Assembly (NCBI RefSeq): GCF_000337335.1
Contig: NZ_AOJN01000047.1
Coordinates: forward strand, 11,387-75,386
DNA length: 64,000 nt
Direction: 5' to 3'
Origin: Halorubrum distributum JCM 10118
GTDB taxonomy: Archaea > Halobacteriota > Halobacteria > Halobacteriales > Haloferacaceae
Shown: piece after piece, positions 28,820 through 40,080 of the stretch
Position numbering within the stretch: the stretch's first letter is position 1
How the letters are laid out: the number at the start of each line of letters is the position of its first letter
The notes under the pieces: model-generated
The model's input: only the letters and a program-made list of their open reading frames with translations
Databases searched by the model: none
Told to the model about the DNA's origin: nothing
Position numbers and translations under genes: made by a program

Positions 28820-29872
28820 CTACGCGTCGCCGTGCGGTTTGACGAGCACCTTGATCGCCTCCCGTTCGTCCATCATGCGGTACCCCTCGGCGACGTCGTC
28901 GAGACCCACCGTCTCGGTGAAGATCGGCGCGGGGTCGAGCGTCCCCTGGAGCACGTCGGCCATCAGCTCCTCGGCGTACGCGCGGACGGGGGCGACGCCG
29001 CCCGCGAGCGTCACGTTCTGCCCGAACATGCCGAACACGTCGAGGCCCTCGTCTTCAACGCCGTAGGGGACGCCGACGTACCCGATCGTGCCGCCGGGGC
29101 GGACGGCGTCGATGGCGGTGTTCATCGCGCTCGCGGCGCCGACGCACTCCATCACGTGGTTCGGCCCGCCGTACGTGAGCTCGCGGATCCGCTCGACGGC
29201 GGCCTCGCCGCGCTCGGAGACGGTCTCGGTCGCGCCGAACTCCTCCGCGAGTTCGAGGCGGTCCTCGTGGTGCCCGACCGCGATGATGCGCTCCGCGCCG
29301 AGCCGGCGGGCCGCGAGGACGCCGCAGAGCCCGACCGCGCCGTCGCCGATGACGGCCACTGTCGAGCCCACCTCGACGCCCGCACTCACGGCCGCGTGGT
29401 GGCCGGTCCCCATCACGTCGGTCAGGGGGAGCAGCGAACGGAGGGTGTCCTCGTCGTCAGCGTGGCGGTCGGGAACGCGAACGAGCGTGCCGTCGGCGTG
29501 GGTCGAACGAACGTACTCGCCCTGGCCGCCGCCGTTGTCGCCGCCCCACGAGTCGCCGTTCTCGCAGGAGGTGTGGAGCCCCTTCCGACAGAACTCGCAC
29601 TCGCCGCAGGAGATCGCGAACGGCGCGAGCACGCGGTCGCCCGGCTCGACGGAGGTGACGTCGTCGCCGACCGCCTCGACGATCCCCATTGGCTCGTGGC
29701 CGACCGGTGAGCCCGCGTCGCGGTCGCTGTCGCCGCGGTAGAACCAGAGGTCGGAGCCGCAGATCGCGGTGTGAGTGACGCGGACGATCGCGTCCGTCGG
29801 GGCCTCGATCTCGGGGCGCGGTCGCTCTTCCACGTCGATCTCGCCGGGGGCGTTGAAGACGGCTGCGCGCAT
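28820..29872 (-). CDS. Zinc-dependent alcohol dehydrogenase (MDR family)
   Basis: A 350-residue protein from ATG 29872 (MRAAVFNAPGEIDVEERPRP). The catalytic zinc region is TAICGSDLWFYRG with GHEPMGIVEAVG; the structural zinc loop has CGECEFCRKGLHTSC (four Cys); the Rossmann motif is VAVIGDGAVGLCGVLAA (about 175-190). It oxidises alcohols or polyols with NAD(P)+. A few residues before Met are in frame (MRSRRTDG) but a TATA-like CTTTT lies about 26 bases upstream of ATG 29872. The 3' end faces repeat copy A. Confidence 0.88.
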   Translation of the reverse strand: MRAAVFNAPGEIDVEERPRPEIEAPTDAIVRVTHTAICGSDLWFYRGDSDRDAGSPVGHEPMGIVEAVGDDVTSVEPGDRVLAPFAISCGECEFCRKGLHTSCENGDSWGGDNGGGQGEYVRSTHADGTLVRVPDRHADDEDTLRSLLPLTDVMGTGHHAAVSAGVEVGSTVAVIGDGAVGLCGVLAARRLGAERIIAVGHHEDRLELAEEFGATETVSERGEAAVERIRELTYGGPNHVMECVGAASAMNTAIDAVRPGGTIGYVGVPYGVEDEGLDVFGMFGQNVTLAGGVAPVRAYAEELMADVLQGTLDPAPIFTETVGLDDVAEGYRMMDEREAIKVLVKPHGDA

Positions 29873-30067
29873 ACCGTCGGTGCGGCGCGAACGCACAAAA
29901 GCGCGGCGTCGTCAGCGCGGAGGTTTCAGCCCGCAGAAACGACAGCGTTCCGACAAAAAATAACGCTTAAACTGCGGCGCTGGCGAGCCGGAGGCGATTC
30001 GAAGAATGACACGGTGCGGCGACGCGAGCGGGGCGACGGATCGACCGGCGAAACGGGTGTTCGAACC

Positions 30068-31147
30068 GTGAGCGACGGCGCGACCCTCCGGATCGTCGAC
30101 GAGCCCGACGACGACCCGGGCGGCGCGGTCCCCGCGCCGGTGCCGCCGGGCGACCCGGAGGCGTGATACGCGCCGGACGTCCGGGCGCAGTACGAGGCGG
30201 CGCCCGGCGTGGTGGCGACCGTCCGCGAGCGCGACGGCGGGCGGTTCGGCTACGACGTCCGCGAGCCGCCGCTGTCGCCCGCCGACGAGCGCGCGCTCGA
30301 CCGGGTCCGCGACCGCTTCTCCGCCGTGCGACACCGCCGCCCGCTCACCCGGGTCGGGGTGGTCGAGCGCGCCGAGCGCGGGTTCGAGCCGAAGTACGCG
30401 ACGGCTATCGACCGGCTGGTCGACGCGAGCGCGGCGGCGCGGCGGCGGATCGACTACCACGCGCTGCGGGAGTTCCGGCTGCTCGGCGAGCTCACGCCGG
30501 TCGCCCTCGACGACCGGATCGAGGTCGCGGACGTGGGCGACGACCGCGAGCTGGTGGTCCACACCGAGACGTTCGCGCCGCTGGAGACCGGGATCGACGC
30601 CGACGCGGACTACGTGGAGCGCGTGGCCGCCGAGCGGCTCGCGCAGTACGCCGTCGAGTTCGCCGGCATCCCGGTCGAGGTCGTCGTCTACCGCGTGGAC
30701 ACCCCGCTGGCGGCGCGGACGCTCGGGCTCGTCACGGGCGCGCTCGACGCCGGCGGCGACGCCGACGCGGTGTTCGAGACGCTCCGGATCGAGGTCGGGC
30801 GCCTGTACAGCGAGCAGCGCGCGCTCCGCTCGTCGATGCAGCCGTACATCGCGGTCGGCTGGGCCGCGGCGGTCCTCGTCGCCGGCGTCGTCGCGGTCGT
30901 GAACACGCAGGTGGTCGACGCCGCGCGGCTCGCGGAGATCGCCGCCGCCTCGGAGGCGGTGACGGAGCCGGAGGGCGTGTATCCGGAACTGGAGCGGTTC
31001 CGGCTGTACGTCGTCACGCAGGCGACGGTGCTCGCGTCCGGGTGGTTCGCCGGCACCGCGGCGCGGGGGCGATATGCGGCCTTGCTCCACTCGGGCGTGC
31101 TCGTTGCGTGCTGTTACGTGGTGTTCACGGTCGGCGGGCTGGTGTGA
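30068..31147 (+). pseudogene. pilB'-'pilC fusion pseudogene (type IV pilus / T2SS)
   Basis: From GTG 30068 the frame reads like the N-terminal part of haloarchaeal PilB secretion ATPases: RIDYHALREFRLLGELTPVA, then RIEVADVGDDRELVVHTETF and YAVEFAGIPVEV. It switches abruptly near residue 220 to the end of a PilC/TadC membrane protein: ARTLGLVTGALDAGGDADAV and FETLRIEVGRLYSEQRALRS, then two or three helices. The whole ATPase core (Walker A/B) is absent. In addition codon 33 is TGA (30164-30166) where relatives have Trp. So a large deletion joined pilB and pilC in frame, and a nonsense mutation followed. Confidence 0.65.
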
Positions 31148-31914: not shown

Positions 31915-32259
31915 GTAGCAGCAGAGGCGCGGATGAGCGGTTCCGAAGCCCCAACCGCTCGCTTATAAATGACTGACTTCGAATCGACGGCGAACACCTC
32001 CAAAGCCCCAGCCGCGAGGAGCCCGTACGCTTGCTGCGCTCCTCGTCACTCGCTTCGCTCGTTCCTGCGGTGCTTGCGTCGCCTACGGACTCCTCGCGGC
32101 TGCCCCTTTGAGTCCCGCCCCACCGCACAGCAGCCGCACCTCACGCCTCCCCAGCCTCGTCAGTCGCCTCCGCTTCGCTCCGGCGACTGACTCCCTCGCG
32201 CGTGCTCCTCGCGCCCGGTGGGCGCTCGGAGGCACGCGCCACCGCGGTTCTGTTTATAA
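31908..32259 (+). repeat. Dispersed structured element, copy B
   Basis: Stacked TTTATAA (31908) and TTATAAAT (31963) units are 55 bases apart. CTCCAAAGCCCCAG follows at 31998. Hairpin 1 is CAGCCGCGAGGAG/CTCCTCGCGGCTG extended by CCGTA/TACGG after one mismatch, then CCCCTTTGAGTCCC. Hairpin 2 is GTCAGTCGCC/GGCGACTGAC. Hairpin 3 is GCGCGTGC/GCACGCGC with inner GCGCCC/GGGCGC. A TTTATAA at 32253-32259 closes it. The left box overlaps the stop of the Cmi4-like gene and the right box is the promoter of the Cas4-like gene. Confidence 0.75.
32253..32259 (+). promoter_or_regulatory. TATA box of the Cas4-like gene, supplied by repeat B
   Basis: TTTATAA is centred 28 bases before GTG 32284, the leaderless spacing. 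It is at the same time the right-hand boundary box of repeat copy B. Confidence 0.6.
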
Positions 32260-39718: not shown

Positions 39719-40080
39719 TTTATAAATAGATCCGCGGTGGCGCGTGCCTCCGAGCGTCCGAAGGACGTGAGGAGCACGCGCGAGGGACGCGGCGACCGGA
39801 GCGAAGCGGAGGGAGCCGCGAGGCTGGGGAGGCGTGAGGTGTGGTTGCTGTGCGGGGCGGGACTCAAAGGGGCAGCCGCGAGGCGGGCGCAGGCGACGTA
39901 AGCACCGCAGGGAGAGAGCGAGTGAAACGAGCGACCGACCGAGGAGCGCAGCGAGCGTGCGCCCGCCTCGCGGCTGGGGCTTTGGAGGTGTTCGCCGTCG
40001 ATCTACCGTCTGTTATTTATAAATGAGCGGCTGGAGTTCCGGAGGTAATTGTCATCGCTCCGCTAACACCGATTTATAAA
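39719..40080 (-). repeat. Dispersed structured element, copy C
   Basis: Same layout as copies A, B and D but on the minus strand: boxes TTTATAAA at 40073 and 40016 (57 bases apart), CTCCAAAGCCCCAG (about 39976-39989), hairpin 1 CAGCCGCGAGGCGGGCGCA/TGCGCCCGCCTCGCGGCTG, a second with CGCGGC/GCCGCG, and a third with GCGTGC/GCACGC and inner CGTCC/GGACG, ending at TTTATAAA 39719-39726. It sits between the 3' ends of two convergent genes (ilvA and the small gene at 40110). Confidence 0.75.

Follow-up and report, generated by a model that had tools for sequence, protein, structure and literature searches.

PilB and PilC are the ATPase and the membrane anchor of archaeal type IV pili, and in Haloferax volcanii the pilB3-pilC3 and pilB1-pilC1 pairs are intact and needed for adhesion (PMC6491452). 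Interruption of a haloarchaeal pilB has been described for Halobacterium salinarum NRC-1 and 63-R2, where two reports place a 10-kb integrative element in pilB2, with genes for CopG, a terminase, a primase and an integrase and an 8-bp direct repeat (PMC4292770, PMC10264941); the second of these also discusses repeat-mediated deletion at that repeat. Other protein-gene targets are listed in a review of archaeal tyrosine recombinases, in which a word search found neither 'pilus' nor 'ATPase' (PMC8371274).

The window, i.e., the whole 64,000-nucleotide stretch of DNA analyzed here, contains at 30068–31147 a haloarchaeal pilB reduced to its first 209 codons, joined in frame to a pilC of which about the last 150 codons are left. 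The frame runs from a GTG at 30068 to a TGA at 31145–31147 and in translation is interrupted solely by a TGA at codon 33. Its parts, all on the forward strand, are the following:

30068..30694, + strand: pilB 5' remnant, codons 1–209 of about 800, GTG start (protein identity to relatives)
30164..30166, + strand: TGA at codon 33 where relatives have a Trp codon (comparison with relatives)
30209..31147, + strand: longest post-stop open frame (312 aa, from a GTG), sole candidate for a fusion product
30684..30695, + strand: joint of the deletion, lying on an imperfect direct repeat of 12 bp (blastn blocks of relatives' loci)
30695..31147, + strand: pilC 3' remnant of about 150 terminal codons, continuing the frame of the pilB remnant (protein identity)
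30845..30901, + strand: hydrophobic, membrane-helix-like stretch in the PilC remnant (hydropathy peak)
31076..31132, + strand: second hydrophobic, membrane-helix-like stretch in the PilC remnant (hydropathy peak)

Codons 1–209 align with the N-terminus of PilB from relatives (91–97% protein identity to the closest intact relatives over 209 residues) and codons 210–359 with the C-terminus of PilC (94–99% to the closest relatives across 150 residues); among named records, the closest PilB proteins come from Halorubrum species. This bears out the first-pass annotation, made from the letters alone, which had described a frame that begins as PilB and ends as PilC. From sequence comparison we consider it very probable that the fusion is a young pseudogene, produced by recent and ordinary gene loss, rather than a working fusion, because the ATPase core is gone.

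The joint was located by blastn of the window against the loci of 12 relatives. In ten of these the blocks end at 30695 and resume at 30684, in one (L032) the block boundary lies at 30681, and in one (L033) no block was obtained. The distance between repeat copies that has collapsed here is 3233–3452 bp in nine relatives and 7010 bp in L029, the latter including inserted DNA, and 3.2–3.5 kb is missing relative to close Halorubrum relatives, which have both genes whole. The two-block alignments thus agree with the deletion fusion that had been proposed, with loss of the ATPase core and most of PilC; the predicted size of ~3 kb compares with about 3.4 kb, and the predicted position near 30700 with 30684–30695. 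Microhomology, which had been suggested as a check, is present as the 12-bp direct repeat, whose pilB and pilC copies agree at 11 bases in most relatives. Both copies there read TCGTC(T/G)ACCGCG, and the window joint retains the T of the pilB copy. Of randomly drawn joints between pilB and pilC of L023, 0.75% had at least 6 identical bases, and among 5,139,670 pairs of 12-mers from these genes 459 differed by at most one base. The phase of the repeat preserves the reading frame, which would be expected of one junction in three by chance. In whole-genome searches with the post-stop frame as query, 51 of 59 genomes matched, own included, and close relatives did so at two places ~3.7 kb apart, with query residues 1–177 in the PilB frame and about 151–326 in the PilC frame.

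In the lineage of this strain a deletion of ~3.4 kb between short direct repeats in pilB (around codons 206–209) and pilC has taken the whole PilB ATPase core and most of PilC, and the change from TGG to TGA at codon 33 is a second lesion in the same gene. As the species is represented by a single strain, the deletion could be confined to this culture. Loss of the pilus or secretion machine that this pilB-pilC pair serves would follow in the strain, and the fused product, which lacks the ATPase and keeps only the end of PilC, probably could not assemble a pilus. Homologues elsewhere in the genome may represent the remaining assembly systems; they are a pilB paralogue of 664 aa, an ATPase-like protein of 1085 aa and an ATPase of 557 aa that is probably of archaellum type.

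Upstream, the spacer between a dehydrogenase gene and pilB (29872–30068) is variable, and relatives have 0 to 5 kb of differing genes in its place, nearly all on the other strand. Loss of pilin genes along with the pair was considered and rejected, as the intervening genes vary and nearly all likely ones lie on the other strand. A dispersed repeat of ~300 bases occurs in the window at 31948–32241 and 39719–40045, both matching the same place of L026 in opposite orientation; the second copy also matches several relatives downstream of pilC at about 79–84% identity.

Among 52 Halorubrum genomes, own included, a PilB ending at residue 210 was found in the own genome only. The lesion is private and close relatives carry intact syntenic orthologues, as expected of a recent deletion pseudogene. 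A stable functional fusion should be common to several species; the PilB-PilC architecture was found in none of the 51 other genomes, and a conserved fused family, i.e., the kind of intact protein family that the first-pass annotation had named as evidence against its reading, was rejected. Some PilC matches cross the joint of the query numerically (e.g., G019, 18–198 at 58%; G009, 12–198 at 42%); full-length PilC frames and a separate PilB match in these cases indicate alignment run-on, and they were rejected as true fusions. An order-wide search covered 293 genomes at an E limit of 1e-70 and scored three candidates in each; as a distant remnant of 210 residues might escape it, it was excluded as a count against the fusion.

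By our reading of the genus search, PilB is full length or in two adjoining pieces in 38 of 52 genomes, split by inserted DNA in six (G003, G009, G018, G021, G024, G075), runs off contig ends in two (G002, G014) and was not found at threshold in five (G008, G010, G031, G062, G068), the remaining genome being that with the fusion. The 38 include G023, with an apparent frameshift near the PilB N-terminus, and four full-length rows with a stop inside the match (G015, G027, G059, G071) that probably reflect run-on past the end of the gene. In the five genomes without pilB, pilC was missing or partial too (G008 at L033 8040–8213), although the absence of PilB from G010 is weak given that this genome is only 84% complete. 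Since pilB was not found in these five further genomes, its loss at this locus is recurrent in Halorubrum. Apparent frameshifts, which may be lesions or sequencing errors, were also seen in pilB of H. kocurii (L061 4902–5527) and in pilC of Halorubrum sp. GN11 (L059 1550–2000).

Inserted elements, most of them with an integrase, interrupt the orthologous pilB at three sites within its ATPase core (L029 6920–10539, L032 5742–10469, L078 4023–11504, L079 4723–14525, L080/L081, L082/L083, L095 and L096), with direct repeats of 8–15 bases. Tyrosine recombinases were found in six of eight genomes with split pilB, their subfamily going with the site; no integrase for G075 or G250 was found in the sequence examined. 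In G021 and G024 the inserts measure 3.6 and 4.7 kb, have a lower GC content (49 and 53%) and carry a tyrosine recombinase (PF00589, E 2e-35 and 1e-33), and where pilB encodes NYLNP its two pieces share a direct repeat, of 15 bases in G021 and 14 in G024. In G003, G075 and G250 pilB is broken directly after the codons for KTTLxNA, which we take to be the P-loop motif; repeats of 8–12 bases occur there, and each end of the insert has a CTACTAGTAG-like motif on its inner side (in G250 only in part). The pilB halves of G075 are on two contigs. At its left end, the insert of G105 matches that of G003. In G009 and G018 the break is at NTGHG with 8-base repeats. The integrases form close pairs, i.e., G003 with G105 (851 bits), G009 with G018, the latter spread over two frames, and G021 with G024. 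In a further genome, G305, pilB is split by ~30 kb (L091 3937–19001, L092 1–15426); an L029-type integrase lies close to the left end, and no direct repeat was found at this gap. G105, G250 and G305 lie outside Halorubrum. The L078 integrase had no match in phage records or viral contigs, and the L029 integrase only matches below 60% identity in phage records. In contrast to the orthologous pilB, the 664-aa paralogue was matched without a break in all 52 Halorubrum genomes (split in 6/52 vs. 0/52, Fisher p 0.027; split, missing or fused in 12/50, leaving out G002 and G014 with pilB off the contig end, vs. 0/52, p 9e-5; both uncorrected for relatedness).

As all three integration sites of the relatives fall within the stretch deleted here, an integrase-bearing element might first have interrupted pilB, with the deletion then removing both the element and the core of the gene. 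No element sequence remains at the joint, however, and the joint lies on a repeat of pilB and pilC that needs no element, so that we regard such a prior insertion as very unlikely.

The next explanation to be weighed is a new functional protein of 312 aa, starting from the GTG at 30209, that would place the N-terminal domain of PilB on a PilC membrane anchor and perhaps act as a dominant interfering subunit. The predicted restart from a GTG or ATG past the stop holds for GTG (30209, 30212, 30326 and 30359 are in-frame starts within 120 codons) and fails for ATG, of which that stretch has none in frame. The frame has remained open for all 326 codons after the stop and encodes a conserved protein sequence, as a selected fusion product would, which counts against a pseudogene; the openness of the frame apart from codon 33 had been pointed out before. 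The two membrane-helix-like stretches also favor a functional protein. However, the ATPase core and most of PilC are missing. Intact PilB of L023 has 801 aa with the T2SSE domain at 413–599 (E 1e-20), and this entire region is deleted from the fusion; the 326-residue post-stop frame matched no Pfam family with an E value of 1 or below, T2SSE (PF00437) included, and has no P-loop GKT or GKS left. The fusion shares the N-terminal region of PilB orthologues and lacks their T2SSE ATPase domain. Full PilC has roughly 700 residues, of which about the last 150 are left, and the remnant is no full-length membrane protein. Pfam and NCBIfam searches of the fusion remnant gave nothing useful, and a sigma-70 promoter and terminator scan was uninformative, its models being unsuited to archaea. 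The stop after codon 32 removes the natural start, and the protein is absent from the 51 other Halorubrum genomes.

The age of the lesion bears on the same question. Codon comparison used the ungapped pieces, 17 left and 19 right, of 22 named loci, and codon 33, TGA here, reads TGG in all 17 relatives whose left piece is free of gaps, in agreement with the Trp-to-stop change noted at first pass. Against 15 relatives picked for pieces aligning without gaps, the terminal branch of the window has 21 synonymous and 5 non-synonymous changes, the stop included, within the range of the terminal branches of other genomes (18/3 to 33/19). The fusion has 298 synonymous and 776 non-synonymous sites, for which about 55 non-synonymous changes would be expected under neutrality throughout. 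At sites invariant in 8–9 close relatives, the private changes of the window are 12 synonymous and 1 non-synonymous, the latter being the stop. As a rough bound, the neutral part of the terminal branch would be about a tenth at most. Since the remnants are without detectable neutral drift, the loss is presumably recent. The low non-synonymous count fits recent loss and is also compatible with selection on the fused product; use of the product is thus conceivable because both readings predict few amino-acid changes. Of the two options originally offered, very recent loss is favored, a recent event yielding the same low change counts without any function, and we consider a functional 312-aa protein highly improbable.

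Least credible is an artefact of assembly or sequencing, with the organism itself lacking the deletion, the stop or both: the genome is a 3.3-Mb draft in 68 contigs (99.6% complete; the window is on contig C47), and the joint and base 30166 are read from the assembly, but a repeat with 11 of 12 bases alike is too short for an assembler to collapse 3.4 kb, the contig is continuous with synteny kept on both sides of the joint, and searches with intact PilB and PilC of L023 found the lost stretch nowhere else in the own assembly. These searches returned the remnants and, for PilB, only paralogues at 30–33% identity, and translocation of the missing part was rejected.

Taken alone, the young pseudogene is one more recent gene loss, and it matters mainly as a pointer to the neighboring pattern, in which site-specific integration and loss have repeatedly struck a pilus ATPase gene in Halorubrum and in some other haloarchaea, and a pilB paralogue in the same Halorubrum genomes is untouched. 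Tentatively, and with more doubt than confidence, we suggest that selection in haloarchaea repeatedly favors inactivation of the pilB-pilC locus, with the fusion as one instance, and that integrases evolved toward the conserved ATPase motifs of pilB. Shut-off of the pilus would then possibly bar competing viruses, or be reversible by excision. If selection drives the pattern, a cost of the pilus, with virus entry as one candidate, is testable across interrupted, excised and intact strains. One pilB insertion, that in pilB2 of Halobacterium NRC-1, is already in print, and a literature search limited to non-subscription papers recognized none describing the wider pattern.

Pseudogenes formed by microhomology deletion have lost the DNA between short direct repeats. 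The fusion shares this short-repeat loss with them in general, and its joint happens to be in frame. Haloferax volcanii resembles the present case in having adjacent ATPase and membrane-anchor genes, with several paralogous pairs per genome (PMC6491452); it has five pairs (pilB1–5), and the likeness is drawn by gene pair, not by assigned orthologue. Although the lesion in Halobacterium pilB2 is an insertion and that described here is a deletion fusing pilB to pilC, both loci present a haloarchaeal pilB inactivated in single strains (PMC4292770, PMC10264941).
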